From NCBI GenBank assembly GCA_021772985.1, contig JAJFKX010000008.1, forward strand, positions 186,001-250,000: DNA of 64,000 bases, read 5' to 3'. The DNA comes from Gammaproteobacteria bacterium. GTDB taxonomy: Bacteria > Pseudomonadota > Gammaproteobacteria > Xanthomonadales > Wenzhouxiangellaceae. This document shows positions 2,246 through 51,458 of this stretch, in pieces; position 1 is the first letter of the stretch, and each line of letters begins with the position of its first letter. Position numbers and translations under genes: made by a program. The notes under the pieces are model-generated. The model was not told the DNA's origin. It did no database searches and worked only from the letters and a program-made list of their open reading frames with translations.

Positions 2246-2375
2246 GTTGCAGCTAACCATTGATTAAATTGCCGGTTTGCAATGACGTCGTCGTAAACCG
2301 CCAATATCATTGCAAGCACTCTTCATAGCATTAATCATCTATATCAGCTATTTTGAAACCCTTGCTAAGCAATAA

Positions 2376-2405
2376 CCGGCTTAGAGCCAGAGGCTCATAA
2401 GCCGG
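2376..2405 (-). terminator. Hairpin between the BNR protein gene and the accessory region
   Basis: CCGGCTTA at 2376-2383 pairs with TAAGCCGG at 2398-2405, and the inner GAGCC/GGCTC extends the stem. On the minus strand it follows the BNR protein stop codon and is followed by a weak T-rich stretch (TTATTGCTT). This is a plausible rho-independent terminator for that gene. Confidence 0.6.
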
Positions 2406-2422
2406 CATTTTACTATCTTATA

Positions 2423-5400
2423 TTATTCTTCGATAAAGTCCGGCACCACCACCCCAGCCTGCTCACCTTCAGCAAACGCTGTATTAAACGCCGCTATCTC
2501 ATTGCTGACTACTGCATCACGCGCTTCCATCGCTTCCCGCCATTCTGCCATCAAATCATTGGCCCGGTCTCGAATACCTTGTGTCACCGGTGGCAAGGTG
2601 TTTTCGACGGTGACGGCAAACAGCCATTGCAGGCTGAAGTCCAGTTTGCTGGGCCAGTTTAATGCATCCTGGAATGATTCCCATTCGGAGGTGAATACGG
2701 TTTTTTCCCAGTTCTCGGTAGCTTCGACGACAGCATCGGCGGCTTCGATCAGCGCCTCATTTTCGTCTTCGTCGAGCAGTTTTTTACGTGCCTTGGTTTG
2801 CTGGCTTACATTGCGGAATGCTTTGATGCTTCCGTGTAATTCATCCAGGGCATTGGCCAATTCGGTCTTAAGTGCCTCATATTCATCAATGTCAGCTTGA
2901 GCCAGTTGCAGACGCGGATCCAGCAGGACGGTCAGCGGTTGTTCCATGCTGGTGTCTTCATCTTCACCCAGTGATAATCTGACCGTATAGTTGCCCGCAG
3001 CCACGCGCGGCCCGCCAATATTTTTGCCGCCACCGGCAGCCAGTACAAACTCGTCTTGTACAGTATTTAGATGGTCGCTGGTTAAATCCCATACTGCGCG
3101 ATTCAAACCGGCATCGGCAGATAATTTATCGCCGCCTTTCTGGTCGCTGGCCAGGGTGCGGACGATATCACCGCCGGCATTGATCAGTTCTAGTTTCAAG
3201 GTGCTGTCTTCTTCAGGTTTTTCCTCCAGGCGATAGTAAATCACGGCACCATTGGGCGGGTTGGCGCCGACGTTATCGCCTCCGCCACCACTGCGCACAA
3301 TGTAGGCTTGCTCAGGTGCAAACAGGTGCGTATCGCTGTTGGTTAGGTCTTGGTTGATCTGCCGCAATGGCGAAATGTCATCCAGAATCCAGAACGCCCG
3401 ACCTTGGGTGGAAAGCACCAGATCACGGCCATGCACTTTGATATCGGTCACTGGTACCGCCGGCAGGTTGCTTTTCAGCGGTTGCCAGTCATCGCCGTCA
3501 TTAAAGGAAACAAACACGCCGGTTTCAGTGCCGGCAAACAGCAATCCCTGCCTTTCGGTATCTTCCCGCACTACCCGCACAAAAGTATCCTCCGGTATAC
3601 CGTCGGCAATCTGCGACCAGCGCTGACCATAGTTGGTAGTTTTGTAAATGTGCGGCTGGTGGTCGTTGTACTTGTAGCGGGTATAGGCCACGTATGCCGT
3701 GGCTGGATCATGCGGTGATACATCGATAGCGTTGACCATGCCATCGTCGATACCACGTGGTGTCACTTCATCCCAGGTTTGGCCGCCGTCTCTGGTCAGT
3801 TGTACCAGGCCATCGTCGGTGCCGACCCATAATACATTGGCATCGTGCGGGCTTTCTTCCAGGTACATGATGGTGTTGTAGTTTTCCGATACCTCGTTGG
3901 TGATCGGCTGACCGCCGGCTCCCTGGGTGGCCTCGTCATCACGGGTCAGGTCCGGACTGATAGCCGTCCAGGAGTTGCCCCGGTCGGTGGATTTAAACAC
4001 CATATTACCGGCGTGATAGATAACCTCGGGGTTGTGGCTTGAGACAACAATCGGGGCGTTCCAGTTAAACCGGTATTTACGTTCTTTGGGTGGTACGCCA
4101 GGTAACAATTCCGGATAAACCCGGATATCACGTTGGGCATTGTTTTGATTATCAAATTCGCTGATCAGACCCAAATAGCAACCGGCATACACCAGTTGTG
4201 GGTTATCAGGGTCAAAGCCTATATGGCCGCTTTCGCAACCGCCTACGGATTTGAAATCTTCACGTCCGATAAAGCCATCGTCCGCACGGCTTAAGATGGC
4301 AACAGTGGAATTATCCTGCTGCCCACCGTAAACCCGGTAGTTGAACAAATTGTCTGCATTGACCCGGTAGAACTGCGCGGTTGGCTGGTTATCTTCTCTT
4401 GACCAGGTTTTGCCGCCATCAAAAGTGATGGTAGCGCCGCCGTCGTTGCCGTTGATCATATTGGCAGAGTTATCGGGGTTGATCCACAACTCATGGTGAT
4501 CACCGTGCGGGGTGCGAATGCCACTGAAACTTTTGCCTCCATCGATGGATTTTACAAACGGCGCATTCAAAACATACACAGTATTTTCGTTTTGCGGATC
4601 GGCAAACACATGCATGTAATACCAGGAACGCGCATGTAAACGACGGTCACCATTAACGTGGCTCCAGCTTTTACCGCTGTCGCTGGAGCGGTACAGGCCA
4701 CCTTTTTCTTTAGCCTCAACCACAGCCCAAACCAGATCCGGATTGGCGCCTGAAGGTGCAATGCCGATTTTGCCCATCAGCTCAGGTAAACCCTTTGTCA
4801 TTTTCTCCCAGGTTTGCCCGCCATCGGTAGATTTATGGATGCCCGAGCCGGGACCGCCGGAACGGATTTCCCACGGTTCACGGTCATGGTCCCACATCGC
4901 AGCAAACAAAATACGTGGATTGGTGGGATGAATGGTGAGATCGACAGCGCCGGTATTTTCATCAACAAACAATACTTGATCCCAGGTTTTACCGCCGTCG
5001 GTGGACTGATAGACACCGCGGTCATCGGTCGGCGCCCATGGGCTGCCCTGTGCCGCCACCCAGATAATGTCAGGATTGTTGGGGTGAATAACCACTTCGG
5101 AAATTTGACGGGTGTTTTCCAGTCCGGCGTGCGTCCAGTTACGACCGGCGTCGGTGGAAATGTAAACCCCGTCACCATGTGAAGAAGCTACGCCCCGAAA
5201 CGGTGACTCACCCATACCTACCACAACCATATTCGGGTCAGATGGGGCTACTGCAATCGCACCTACCGAACCAGTATTAAAGAACTTGTCGGAAATATTG
5301 GTCCAGGTATTGCCCGCATTGGTGGTTTTCCACACCCCGCCACCGGTGCTGCCCATGTAATACACCAAAGGGTCTTGTAATACGCCGGCTACTGCTACTG

Positions 5401-44831: not shown

Positions 44832-45571
44832 ATGAGAGCATTTAAATACTCAAAAGTTGTAATTTCTTGTTGTGCCAAGCGTTTATCACGGCACAGTATT
44901 TTCTATTCAGTCTTGACTGCTTTGTATTGCTGTTCAGCGACTCTGCACATGGGTTGTCAGAGGATGCTGAGCATCGGCACTTCACCCCAACTCCATCGAT
45001 TTCCGTGCGAGGTGATTCCAGTTTCGGGCCATTTGCAAACAACGCCAATGGTGTTGGTTTGAATTTATCCGGGACGGTCAAAGTTGAATCTGGAATATTG
45101 AGCAGTATGGCAAATTTTGATCAGCCAACATTTACGGTAACAGGCGTTGGTGAAGCCGAAAATACCTATTTACAGCTAGTGCTTTTCGATAGCCCGGGAG
45201 CTGGCACGTTCACTCAGGCTGACTGGGTAGCCTCTGAATCGGTTAACTGTGGTGCTTTGGAAGTTAACGCTGTCACCACCATTATCAATGGTGAAGTAAT
45301 CATTGATAATAATATTATCGTGCTGCCACAAAACCCTTTACCCAATACCATTATTGACCTCGCACCTATGGGTTGGCCGGGGACTGTTATTATTCTTAAT
45401 GAGCAAATCATTACCGGTGATTATCAGAGCAAGTTGAATGTGCTCACCAATGCGATGCATGTGGTGTTTGATATATTCGATTTTAATGTCGAGTTGACTG
45501 GAGGGGTTATTTTTGGCAGAAGCCAGGCTGCAATTACTGGTTGCAGGAACCCGGTCAGCGAAAATTTATAG
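44832..45571 (+). pseudogene. Secreted-protein gene, probably frameshifted after the signal peptide
   Basis: The ATG at 44832 has AAAGGAG at the right distance and encodes a signal-peptide-like start (HSIFYSVLTALYCCSA), but that frame then becomes Cys/Pro-rich nonsense and stops at 45062. A different frame carries a plausible mature protein from about 44940 to 45571 (GLSEDAEHRHFTPTPSISVR, then LNLSGTVKVESGIL, ENTYLQLVLFDSPGAG, GGVIFGRSQAAITGCRNP), ending with a Cys residue. A single base lost near 44930-44950 would join the two. Either it is a real frameshift mutation or a sequence error. No family recognised. Confidence 0.55.
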
Positions 45572-47311: not shown

Positions 47312-47586
47312 GGGCATTAAGCTATAACCATTGAAGTTCCTGTTATGGTGCTTGTAATTGACCGATGCAAGGCCGTATAAGCTATACAAAGCGTATTATC
47401 TTGCTTGCTATATAATGTGTCATGTTTTCATGGGAGGCTGACCTTGGATGCATTATCTGCATATTTGTGGGCAGCAATTTGAAAGCAAAATTTGATAATG
47501 CCGGTTGTATGCATGAGATCAAATTTGATCAATCCAGATTGATGCGTTATCAATCTATAAGCTGAAACATCTAGGAGATATGTGTT

Positions 47587-48045
47587 ATGAAACAAGCCAT
47601 CGTACCTGTACTATCAGGCGTTGCTCTGGCAATGGCTGCAGCTGGCTGTGCCAGTAATGGTGCCGATGCTGTCGGTTCGACTGCGAGTAACGTTGACAGC
47701 ACCGACTTAGTCCATTGTTATGGCGTCAATGTTTGTGGTGGTCACAACGATTGTGCAACTGCCGACCATGCATGCGCTGGCCAGGGTTCCTGCAAAGCTA
47801 CCGGTTTTGTTGGGATGCCATCTAAAGCTTGCGCGGATGTTGGTGGAGAAATCAGTGATGAATGGCGCGGTACTATCGCCAAGGCTGATCTGGTTCACTG
47901 TTATGGCGTCAATGTTTGTGGTGGTCATAACGATTGCAGCACAGCTGAACACGCTTGCGCCGGTCAAGGTTCATGTAAAGGTACCGGTTTTGTCGGCATG
48001 CCTGAGAAAGCCTGCGGTGATATCGGCGGTAAAGTCGGCCCATAA
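47587..48045 (+). CDS. bufA: Bufferin precursor with two tandem six-Cys modules (BufA2/DUF2282 type)
   Basis: A 152-residue protein preceded by TAGGAGA. The N-terminus ([20 protein letters not shown]) is a signal, possibly a lipobox ending at Cys21. Two modules, residues 40-86 and 101-147, have Cys at 44, 50, 56, 63, 69, 82 and again at 105, 111, 117, 124, 130, 143, each shifted by exactly 61 residues. The module [17 protein letters not shown] is identical in both. Bufferins are copper-binding, ribosomally made peptides whose Cys are converted to thiooxazoles by an MNIO enzyme. The duplication is recent, since the DNA of the core is nearly identical. bufB and bufC follow. Confidence 0.9.
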
Positions 48046-48070: not shown

Positions 48071-48952
48071 GTGGCTGCAACAGCAGGTTCTTCAATTAAG
48101 CGCCCGTGTCTCGGTTTTGGATTGGGATTGCGGACGGTACATTTCCAGCACGTACTGGAACACCACCCGAAAGTTGACTGGTTTGAAGTAATTTCCGAGA
48201 ACTTTATGGTGGCGGGCGGCAAGCCTCGCCACTATCTCAGTGCAATACGCGAACATTACCCAATGGTGATGCATGGCGTTTCCTTATCCGTAGGTAGTAC
48301 CGATCCACTGGATTGGGATTATCTGAAACAACTTAAAACCCTGGCCAACGAAGTCCAGCCCGAATGGATTTCCGATCACCTGTGCTTCACCATGGCAGGT
48401 GGTGTAAACAGTCATGATCTGCTGCCGTTGCCATATGACGAGCAAACCATTCGGCATGTGGTGGATCGGGTGAATCAGGTACAGGACTTCCTGGGCCGCC
48501 GGCTGCTGCTGGAGAATGTCTCCAGTTATTTGACCTACCAGCAATCGGTATTAAGCGAATGGGCGTTTTACCGTGAAGTAGTCGAGCGTGCTGATGCATT
48601 GATGCTATTTGACATTAATAACGTTTATGTCAGTGCCCGCAATCATGATTTTGAGCCGCTTGAATACCTGGATGGTATCGATCCCGGTCGGGTTCAACAG
48701 TTTCATCTGGCCGGGCATACCGATCATGGCGACTATGTGGTGGATACCCATGACCATGATGTGCCTGATCCGGTCTGGGATTTGTATGTGCAGGCGCTGC
48801 GCCGATTCGGTCCTGTCAGCACCATGATTGAGCGCGATGATGACATTCCCGAATTTGATGATCTATACGCTGAACTGCAGCATGCCAAGCAACTGGCGGT
48901 AGCGGTTTTTCCAGATATGAATGATCGCTCAACTGCTACGCGGGCAGCATGA
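48071..48952 (+). CDS. bufB: BufB, MNIO-family (DUF692) bufferin-modifying oxidase
   Basis: 293 residues from GTG at 48071. The MNIO/DUF692 TIM-barrel motifs are visible: HYPMVMHGVSLSVGS, WISDHLCF, LLENVSSYL, FDINNVYVSARNH, FHLAGHTDHGDYVVDTHDHD and IERDDDIPEFDDL. These carry the multinuclear iron ligands. The enzyme oxidises bufferin Cys residues to 5-thiooxazoles. It is 25 bases after bufA and its product acts with the BufC partner. The direct link to a duplicated substrate suggests one enzyme modifies both modules. Confidence 0.93.
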   Translation: MAATAGSSIKRPCLGFGLGLRTVHFQHVLEHHPKVDWFEVISENFMVAGGKPRHYLSAIREHYPMVMHGVSLSVGSTDPLDWDYLKQLKTLANEVQPEWISDHLCFTMAGGVNSHDLLPLPYDEQTIRHVVDRVNQVQDFLGRRLLLENVSSYLTYQQSVLSEWAFYREVVERADALMLFDINNVYVSARNHDFEPLEYLDGIDPGRVQQFHLAGHTDHGDYVVDTHDHDVPDPVWDLYVQALRRFGPVSTMIERDDDIPEFDDLYAELQHAKQLAVAVFPDMNDRSTATRAA

Positions 48953-48968
48953 CCGGCGTGAATTAGCC

Positions 48969-49787
48969 ATGGCAGAACCTTTGCCCTTAAAGGAATTGCA
49001 GCACCGGTTCCTGGATTATTTGCAACAACAGCAATTGGACCAGCCGCATTCGTTGGCTCAGCAGGTTGTTGAGCAGGGCAAAATCAATGCCGCACAAAGG
49101 CTGGGAATTTACGGCAATGCTTATCGTGTCAGGCTGCAAAAAGTTATCGAAACCGATCATCCCGTTTTGTGTGCTTATCTGGGGGATGATTTATTTGCTG
49201 AATTATTAACAGGCTATCTGCAGGCACATCCGTCACAGGTTAGATCTCTGCGTTATTTTTGCCAGCGTTTACCGGAATATCTGCAAGTCACAAAACCGTT
49301 TTCACAACATCCGGTATTAGCCGAGATTGCGATGTTTGAAAATTTGCTGCTGGATAGTTTTGATGCGCCTGACCGGCAACGCAAAGATTTCGCAGAAGTT
49401 CAGGCATTACCTCCGGAACAATGGCCTGCTATGCATTTGCGCTTGCATCCCAGTGTGCAGTTTTTTATTGCCCGCTGGAATAGTGTAGAAAGCTGGCAGG
49501 CGATTAAGGCGGAAAATAAGCCACCTGTCGCTGAAAAAATACCCTCAGATTCAAATCACCAGGCGATGTTGCCATGGTTGGTATGGCGAAACGAACAGCA
49601 ATTGACACAATTCCGTTCGCTTGACGGTGCAGAATATGAATTGCTGACCGAAATAGTCAAAGGTCAGGGTTTTGCCAGTTTATGTGAATTGTTGATAGCC
49701 TGGTATTCAGAGGAAGAAATTGGACAGCGGGTGGTGAGCTATATGCAACGATGGTTTACCGACGCGATTATCGTTGGGATACATTGA
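48969..49787 (+). CDS. bufC: BufC, DUF2063 partner of the bufferin MNIO
   Basis: 272 residues from ATG at 48969; an ATG at 48921 would overlap bufB. The DUF2063 signature is present: RFLDYLQQQQ, AAQRLGIYGNAYRVRLQKVI, DHPVLCAYLGDDLF, YLQAHPSQVRSLRYFCQRLP and ELAxxExx-like IAMFENLLLDSFDA. BufC-type proteins bind the precursor and present it to BufB. Its stop abuts the stop of the convergent C13 peptidase gene with no space. Confidence 0.9.
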   Translation: MAEPLPLKELQHRFLDYLQQQQLDQPHSLAQQVVEQGKINAAQRLGIYGNAYRVRLQKVIETDHPVLCAYLGDDLFAELLTGYLQAHPSQVRSLRYFCQRLPEYLQVTKPFSQHPVLAEIAMFENLLLDSFDAPDRQRKDFAEVQALPPEQWPAMHLRLHPSVQFFIARWNSVESWQAIKAENKPPVAEKIPSDSNHQAMLPWLVWRNEQQLTQFRSLDGAEYELLTEIVKGQGFASLCELLIAWYSEEEIGQRVVSYMQRWFTDAIIVGIH

Positions 49788-51149
49788 TTACAAGCTGCTT
49801 AATTCTGAAGCCCATTTTACTAACTTATTTAATAATTCCGGCGCATTGCTGATTTGTGGCTCGGAGGCGGGATAACCCTGTTCGTTTTCCCATTCACTGA
49901 GATGCTGTTTGGCGATTTCAAACGCATCGGTAAAAGACTTTGTTTCAGCTAAGCCAATTTGAAAAAAAGCCCGGCCAAAATAGGTCATGTCGGTATCATC
50001 ACTGCAACCGAAAGAGTGCCGGTCATCCCGTGCAGCAGTGATAATCAGGCTGTTATTGTCCTGCAAAGGTTCTATAAAACCACCGGAAAAGCACGCCGAG
50101 ACCACCACTACTTTTGAGCGTATGCCAGATTCCTTAATCAAAGTAGCCAGGTAATCTGCTGATAAATTATTTAGCGGCAGGTTATAAAGTGAGAACGATA
50201 GCCAATGGTTTTTCGAACCATGACTGGTAATGAACAAAAATAAAATATCCTCTTCCAAGTCCATCACACCAGCCAAGCCGTTCAGTGCAGTTTTGAGATT
50301 GCTGACGGTGGCCAACGGATGGCTGTCGATAACTTCCGGGTTATTGATTAATGTGATTTGTCTGCCCTCGGCAGCGAAAGTGTCAGCAAACAACTGTTCG
50401 GTGAAAAGCGCTTCTTTCATGAACACATCCTGTTCGCCGTAGCCGGCGACGTGAACCGTATACATATCGGTAACTTCAGGACGTTGCGGTGATAATCCAG
50501 CGATTATGTTGTCCAGCATAGCCGCCTGCCGGAACAAAACTCTTTCGGTATTGAAGTTGGGCGTTGATTCAGCAGTTTCAGCATTTTTGTAATATTCTGA
50601 ATAGTCGGTTTGCCAGAAATCCGCCAACAGCAGCTGGCTGGCCAGCAGGTAAACGATGATCGGGTGACTGATGGCGGGTAATATCTGTCGGCGCCGGTAT
50701 TGCCATGGCTGCAAGCTGCGCAAGGCTGTAATGACCGGGATCGCGAGCCAGATGATGGAACCATACCAAAGCCATTGATACACCTGCCAGGGTGTTTCAG
50801 GGGCGTGGATCAGCCAGTTATATACCGGTAGCAGCAGCAGGTTGCGGACAATGTCTGCACTCAGCAGCAATACCGGCAGTTGCCATATTAATGATGGTTG
50901 TCTGCACCAACGGGCGGCCAGCATGCCGATCGACAGCAATACCAGCAAAAATACCGCCCAGGTTTGCAAGGCATTAAGATCAAACAAACGTGGTGGTAAC
51001 ACTGCAGCGAAATCAAAAGCTAATTCGGTCAGCAGGCTGAGCATGGCCAGCGCCCAAAACCAGCCGGCAGTCAACTGCAATCTGTTAACTTTGGGATGCC
51101 AGCCAAGCAACAATTGACAGCCGGCCAGTAATAGTTTGATCAAATGCAT
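49788..51149 (-). CDS. Membrane-bound C13 (legumain/caspase-like) peptidase
   Basis: About 453 residues from ATG at 51149; the frame begins earlier with a non-ATG codon. Five or so membrane helices occupy the N-terminal ~180 residues. The soluble C-terminal half is a C13-type domain with catalytic His310 in LFITSHGSKNHW and Cys353 in VVVSACFSGGF, the clan CD dyad. Bacterial C13 proteins with membrane anchors are known but little studied. It is convergent with bufC at zero distance, so a regulatory link is possible but not shown. Confidence 0.85.
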   Translation of the reverse strand: MHLIKLLLAGCQLLLGWHPKVNRLQLTAGWFWALAMLSLLTELAFDFAAVLPPRLFDLNALQTWAVFLLVLLSIGMLAARWCRQPSLIWQLPVLLLSADIVRNLLLLPVYNWLIHAPETPWQVYQWLWYGSIIWLAIPVITALRSLQPWQYRRRQILPAISHPIIVYLLASQLLLADFWQTDYSEYYKNAETAESTPNFNTERVLFRQAAMLDNIIAGLSPQRPEVTDMYTVHVAGYGEQDVFMKEALFTEQLFADTFAAEGRQITLINNPEVIDSHPLATVSNLKTALNGLAGVMDLEEDILFLFITSHGSKNHWLSFSLYNLPLNNLSADYLATLIKESGIRSKVVVVSACFSGGFIEPLQDNNSLIITAARDDRHSFGCSDDTDMTYFGRAFFQIGLAETKSFTDAFEIAKQHLSEWENEQGYPASEPQISNAPELLNKLVKWASELSSL

Positions 51150-51458
51150 GGGGTATAAGCTGCACTGCAAGTTGGCATCATAGTAGCAGTCTGGTTATGG
51201 ATATATGCTGGATGCAGATTCGCACTCAAGCATAGGCGTCCTCAATCCAGTCCGATACATTACTGATCACGGTCACAGCTATTGACGACCAGATTACGCT
51301 CAGCGATTTCTTGCTGGGTTTGACCGTCTTTAATCACCAACGTGGCAAATACATTGTAGTGCGGCTGAGCTGTTGGCTAAGTACGCGTAATCAACTGATA
51401 TTACATTGGCTTTTTTTGACCGGTTGATCCCTGCATGATGGAGGTGTTTAATGCTGTC

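Follow-up and report, generated by a model that had tools for sequence, protein, structure and literature searches.

Bufferins are modified peptides that protect against copper; the family is large and was described only recently. Among its criteria are an RRE-type domain in BufC, a Cys-derived modification with a 4-H loss and absorbance near 305 nm, and copper binding with protection from copper. A copper function has been described for Buf1 and there are preliminary data for a Caulobacter Buf2; in Buf2 operons the gene order is bufABC, and the precursor carries a Sec or lipoprotein signal (PMC12452194). Antoine et al. (2025) reported 12 Cys in about 10% of Buf2 (Buf_6/12Cys), corresponding to duplicated six-Cys domains; the Buf2 modification was not identified in that work, with preliminary results for one Buf2 giving the same mass loss per Cys and a similar absorbance (PMC12452194). 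The 12-Cys example modelled there is from Cognaticolwellia aestuarii, which is also the species of one locus in our set (L058) (PMC12452194). In the accessible parts of two other reports, the EGKCG captophorins (fontiphorin, oxazolin and bulbicupramide) acquire thiooxazoles through an MNIO enzyme and a DUF2063 partner, on a short repeated motif that is unlike the six-Cys modules considered here (PMC13097082, PMC12538549). The accessible text on MmrA describes three cassettes in one precursor with one leader, all of them modified (PMC12538549).

The window, that is, the whole stretch of 64,000 nucleotides that was analysed, contains a two-module bufferin locus (Table 1). The architecture has already been published, and the window protein is a well-supported member of a known subclass. 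In common with the 12-Cys Buf2 subclass (NF050166), it has two six-Cys modules, the bufABC order and a putative Sec/lipoprotein signal, whereas its lineage has Lys after just two of the eight central Cys and a lipobox without Leu. Single-module Buf2 proteins have the same six-Cys spacing and maturation genes, but only one module. The precursor ORF (152 codons and a stop) is preceded by AGGAG at 47573-47577, which reads as ribosome-binding-site-like, and its product matches the BufA2 model NF050166 with 128.9 bits against a cut-off of 60, the match being split in two stretches; a Pfam search of the precursor gave no match. The bufB product scores 373.2 bits with NF050167 (cut-off 310) and 370.8 bits with PF05114. 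The bufC product scores 67.7 bits with PF09836 (DUF2063, cut-off 27.2) and, at 42.9 bits, lies under the cut-off of 142 of the HvfC model NF050145; the bufB and bufC ORFs overlap. These scores bear out the preliminary description, which had named a bufferin precursor followed by bufB and bufC.

Table 1. Coordinates of the features of the two-module bufferin locus in the window
Feature	Position	Strand	Basis
bufA2, 12+1 Cys bufferin precursor with two modules, 152 aa	47587..48045	+	NF050166
Signal peptide region, ending in lipobox-like AAAG-C	47587..47649	+	pattern match
Cys21 codon, predicted lipidated residue, Ala at +2	47647-47649	+	pattern match
Module 1, C1-C6, residues 44-82, spacing 6-6-7-6-13	47716..47832	+	Cys positions
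Val85 codon, D[VI]GG of module 1, partner of Ile146 (reciprocal V/I site)	47839..47841	+	sequence, alignment
Inter-module linker, 17 residues (88-104), W-x-G	47848..47898	+	conservation and predicted strand
Module 2, C1-C6, residues 105-143, spacing as in module 1	47899..48015	+	Cys positions
Ile146 codon, D[VI]GG of module 2	48022..48024	+	sequence, alignment
bufB, MNIO maturase, GTG start, ERDDDIP from residue 254	48071..48952	+	NF050167, PF05114
bufC, DUF2063 partner protein; alternative start ATG at 48969	48921..49787	+	PF09836

As for the surroundings of the operon, a promoter scan at the locus found five candidates where 4.9 were expected, and a clear operator was not seen by eye in an upstream alignment with the congener. 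A Peptidase_C13 gene (legumain/caspase-like, 460 aa) lies at 49788-51170 on the minus strand, convergent with bufC, and its product has membrane-like segments by eye. At 44867-45571 on the plus strand there is a gene for a choice-of-anchor P family protein, at 28.5 bits barely over the NCBIfam cut-off of 27.

The Cys residues of the first module are at positions 44, 50, 56, 63, 69 and 82, and those of the second at 105, 111, 117, 124, 130 and 143, so that the spacing is equal and the offset is exactly 61 residues. The duplication had been called exact, which stands for the residue offset and fails for the DNA, where a repeat search gave 77% identity across 144 nt and the longest run of identical letters is 29 nt. 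This identity mostly reflects conserved protein: synonymous codons are the same in 18 of 35 comparable places, where 14.4 would be expected on the basis of non-homologous codons within the gene (z 1.4, a weak excess), and the window modules are therefore not fresh copies. The second module does not lack recognition residues, as the Cys are identical in both modules and the flanks almost so. Beyond the window, the offset is 61 in 67 of 70 distinct two-module proteins and 62 in the other three, and since the same spacing recurs throughout this set, the pattern is not due to chance. A W-x-G motif is found in the linker of 65 of the 70. In L053 an identical one-residue insertion is present in both modules, although in L169 and L170 an insertion is confined to module 1.

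The two-module form had been taken as unusual in the preliminary description, which was correct on the architecture, and also in taking one module as typical of the family, and was made unaware of the earlier report; at about 10% of Buf2 (PMC12452194), two modules are common enough to remove most of that claim. Our own samples, in both of which the window's precursor is itself counted, agree with the published proportion in order of magnitude: two-module precursors account for 2 of 90 frames over the family cut-off in the class (369 genomes; leaving out a further double match in G442, which is an inner Cys expansion) and for 4 of 33 in the phylum (398 genomes). Searching with the two-module alignment (E up to 1e-25) gave matches in 25 of 394 genomes of G784's order, 24 of them nearly full length and one partial with an internal stop, and in 12 of 390 genomes of G637's order. 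A scan of genome contigs gave 48 loci, and a two-module gene is present in all except L062-L065. One scan of viral contigs found no relative. In the source genome, nothing scored over the cut-off for DUF2282 (Buf1).

The best explanation of the data as a whole, and one we consider very probable, is that the window protein is a probably lipid-anchored 12-Cys Buf2 bufferin acting uncleaved as a two-domain periplasmic copper chelator. The data show its sequence, architecture, operon and conservation, the within-protein match of the cores and the single BufB group; its modification, lipidation, copper binding and uncleaved state are what we infer. The lipobox was assigned with a PROSITE-style pattern. 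By this pattern Cys21, the 13th Cys of the precursor, follows a hydrophobic N-terminus and closes the lipobox-like AAAG-C, which is without the usual Leu. A lipobox-like Cys is present in 43 of 70 two-module proteins compared to 9 of 68 single-module proteins, and in 23 of 32 compared to 6 of 47 after thinning. An AF2 model of the precursor (39 sequences) is of modest confidence (mean pLDDT 66, pTM 0.57); the linker is a confident predicted strand (residues 88-98, block pLDDT 85-92) and the Cys-loop blocks are poor (pLDDT 48-61). A fold search with the precursor gave no match among solved structures, and a sequence search of solved structures gave two chance-level hits (E near 1), neither of them credible.

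Based on the results presented above, the following course of events may be proposed. The precursor would be synthesised in the cytoplasm and the Cys of both modules modified there by BufB and its partner BufC, probably to thiooxazoles as in characterised relatives. The modified precursor would then be exported by Sec, and Cys21 would probably be lipidated, holding the protein at the periplasmic face of a membrane. Finally, the two modules, joined in one chain by the conserved linker, would chelate excess copper, and a copper capacity twice that of a one-module protein is plausible. The two modules probably go back to a single, old event; the cores would then have changed together through the shared enzyme and probably some gene conversion, and the flanking positions would have stayed module-specific since the duplication. 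The two-module form offers a natural test of the way in which one enzyme pair deals with two substrate domains in a single chain. The points added here to the published subclass, namely one BufB group, module co-evolution, the V/I site and the loss of Cys-Lys motifs, are modest and mostly inferential.

The age of the duplication was approached through a BufB tree of 51 rows, comprising 26 of the 70 two-module loci, 6 of 14 loci with tandem bufA2 genes and 19 rows from part of the single-module loci (18 distinct, two rows being one genome). The 26 two-module loci lie on one side of a starred branch (96), although the loci were gathered by similarity to the window protein or the family model and distant two-module precursors may be missed. 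As the two-module BufBs form one group, the event is old and probably single. The six tandem-gene loci, of the Methylophaga/Cycloclasticus type (L062-L065, L173, L181), form a group of their own (99) that is joined to the two-module loci (90), apart from the single-module rows, and they are the nearest BufB relatives among the 51 rows. Like the window, these loci have two or more modules before bufB, but spread over two or three genes, and in four of the six (L063, L064, L065 and L173) the 3' gene codes for 10 Cys.

This relationship raises the alternative that the two-module precursor is a fused tandem pair, made of a lipoprotein-type and a secreted single-module gene, rather than an intragenic duplication. 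In the six loci a lipobox-like Cys occurs together with V at D[VI]GG in the 5' gene, or in both 5' genes in the case of L064, and the 3' gene is without such a Cys and carries I at this site; V before I is also the commonest order in the fused proteins. However, the six are one clade and were picked for their HNDC-type modules from 14 distinct loci with at least two bufA2 genes, and the pattern is absent in the other eight (L111, L115, L116, L118, L171, L172, L174 and L175), two of which (L172 and L174) carry the lipobox gene downstream. A module tree built from 74 rows and 48 columns, with a single starred branch and 12 single modules (those having NDC and the closing GG), joins both modules of the two-module proteins with five of the six 5'-type modules, whereas the 3'-type stays with the single modules (90, open). 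HMM score differences fail to assign the tandem modules to module 1 or module 2, and the co-evolution of the two modules, described below, blurs the test. The module tree and the HMM comparison do not decide between fusion and intragenic duplication; the tandem loci without the pattern count against fusion, and we hold it to be rather unlikely. Two other expansions were seen in these tandem loci. In L063, L064, L065 and L173 the 10 Cys of the 3' gene come from a two-Cys unit of 13 residues that is repeated internally, which is another route to an enlarged metal site. In L174 a single module, encoded by a frame around 2974 on the plus strand, is expanded to 13 Cys with repeated SCKGK..CK units, and two smaller bufA2 genes lie next to it.

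Within one protein, the two modules resemble each other more than modules of different proteins do. Among 46 proteins, core identity is 0.872 within a protein compared to 0.797 between proteins, and in a shuffle test with 23 thinned proteins none of 5000 shuffles reached the observed value, though shuffling leaves relatedness in and common descent may account for some of the core match. A coupling scan of all 67 proteins with offset 61 placed the homologous core positions 19, 21, 23, 25 and 29 among the strongest inter-module pairs; in the scan of 25 thinned proteins, 21, 23 and 25 are still near the top, 19 is lower and the pair 29-29 falls outside the top 30. The flanks, on the other hand, remain specific to their module: T prevails at position -4 in module 1 (33/46) and A in module 2 (41/46), and at position 36 module 1 has S or T (43/46) and module 2 has A (39/46). 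In 23 thinned genes the same synonymous codon is used in 432 of 749 places, compared to 394.3 expected (z about 3.2), and this modest excess is located in the core and not in the tail (35/67 compared to 33.0, z 0.6). This pattern in the sequences suggests that some gene conversion has acted on the core, and a shared maturase would also explain the core match at the protein level. A larger excess, obtained against locus-average codon usage (968 compared to 730 of 1676), was discounted as inflated by gene-specific bias. No paper covering module co-evolution in MNIO precursors was recognised among the literature matches listed, in a search covering few subscription journals.

The residue before the closing Gly-Gly (D[VI]GG) is a reciprocal site. 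In modules 1 and 2 of the 67 proteins it is V/I in 48, I/V in 12 and another combination in seven (II in three; VV, AI, VL and VM in one each), so that V/I or I/V occurs in 60 of 67, and in 19 of 25 after thinning. The window has V/I (residues 85 and 146) and its congener I/V. On the best BufB tree, covering 66 of the 67 loci, there are seven changes between V/I and I/V, of which window and congener are one. A conservative independent-pairs test, with five pairs on starred branches (nine on all branches), was not significant (median p 0.125), four pairs going the same way and one showing no difference in 167 of 200 pairings; a previous run on 46 of 47 loci gave three pairs and a median p of 0.25. 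The V/I pair (42-42) ranks seventh in the coupling scan of 67 proteins and falls outside the top 30 in the 25 thinned ones. The V/I site may thus be taken as a lead for an inter-module contact, not as proof.

A more far-reaching reading is that the modules make up one folded, co-evolving unit from a single ancient event, often lipid-anchored and with its own BufB lineage, and that the shared enzyme and gene conversion keep the cores similar. The V/I pair would then be a packing contact, and the two modules a tethered pair, possibly with cooperative copper binding. The thinned scan counts against this paired unit, and we offer it only tentatively, as possible rather than probable.

The preliminary description had also suggested that the protein might be cleaved into two units. 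Such a polyprotein-like precursor, cut in the linker to release two independent one-module bufferins, would fit the Gly-Gly that occurs shortly after the sixth Cys in all 140 modules of the 70 two-module proteins, and single-module bufferins do occur as separate genes, tandem pairs included. The same Gly-Gly, however, is found in 54 of 68 single modules, which have no partner that could be cut off, and the linker has a fixed length with its conserved W-x-G. The coupling between the modules and the reciprocal V/I site count in the same direction; moreover, an NCBIfam/Pfam profile scan found no peptidase among the three buf genes, and the adjacent Peptidase_C13 gene lies on the opposite strand. 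Cleavage is therefore argued against, and we consider it improbable. A recent duplication restricted to this organism's lineage, for which the 29-nt identical run and the grouping of the window's modules with those of the congener (module tree of 48 columns; 92, open fork) might be cited, is the most improbable reading of all and was rejected on the distribution of the architecture (70 distinct proteins, many genera), the single BufB group of the 26 two-module loci (provided that it was not created by the choice of loci) and the near-expected synonymous codons of the window, and the residues diagnostic of module 1 and module 2 are also common to several genera.

The two-module bufferin of the window is peculiar in the residues next to its Cys. 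Lys after the modified Cys marks the Cys-Lys group of captophorins. Among 68 single modules, 48 have Lys after each of the four central Cys, in a count where three of the 68 (the inner-expanded 3' genes of L063, L064 and L065) are read in the wrong module register. In the window protein and its congener Lys follows the fifth Cys only, in each module, and the resulting two of eight is the lowest value of the 70 two-module proteins (the next is L031 with three, and 60 have five or more). In the accessible part of PMC13097082, it is proposed from a model that the Lys after Cys meets an Asp of BufB2. The window BufB has an Asp at this proposed contact site (ERDDDIP), as matched by motif to the position given in that part of the source. 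After ERD, 19 of 46 two-module BufBs have Ala or Gly; of 53 single-module BufBs, three have Ala and one has Ser at this place, the Ser being in an EWD motif. The loss of Lys need not mean a loss of modification, since FonBC, which serves a different motif, introduced one modification each into NVCGG and LVHCY and left HNDCK unprocessed, as far as the accessible text goes (PMC13097082). With Lys after only two of eight central Cys, the number of modified sites may be lower in the window lineage. Having lost most Cys-Lys motifs in both modules, the genus of the window provides a natural test of the proposed BufB recognition rule.

The source genome has two further MNIO genes (PF05114). At the second MNIO locus (L131, G000:C4:23500-28500), the precursor at 2809-3159 on the minus strand (116 aa) has an apparent signal peptide and EGSCG repeats, in which Ser stands where EGKCG has Lys; two ORFs located downstream read as partner-like and DoxX-like, respectively. 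Both signal-bearing precursors seen in this genome are mostly without Lys beside Cys. At the third (L130, G000:C12:464500-469000), the ORF at 2373-3020 on the minus strand (215 aa) is Cys-rich and has no obvious signal peptide, the MNIO protein has EWDGNIP in place of ERD, with a partner-like ORF alongside, and upstream there is a 474-aa ORF that is ferritin-like in appearance.
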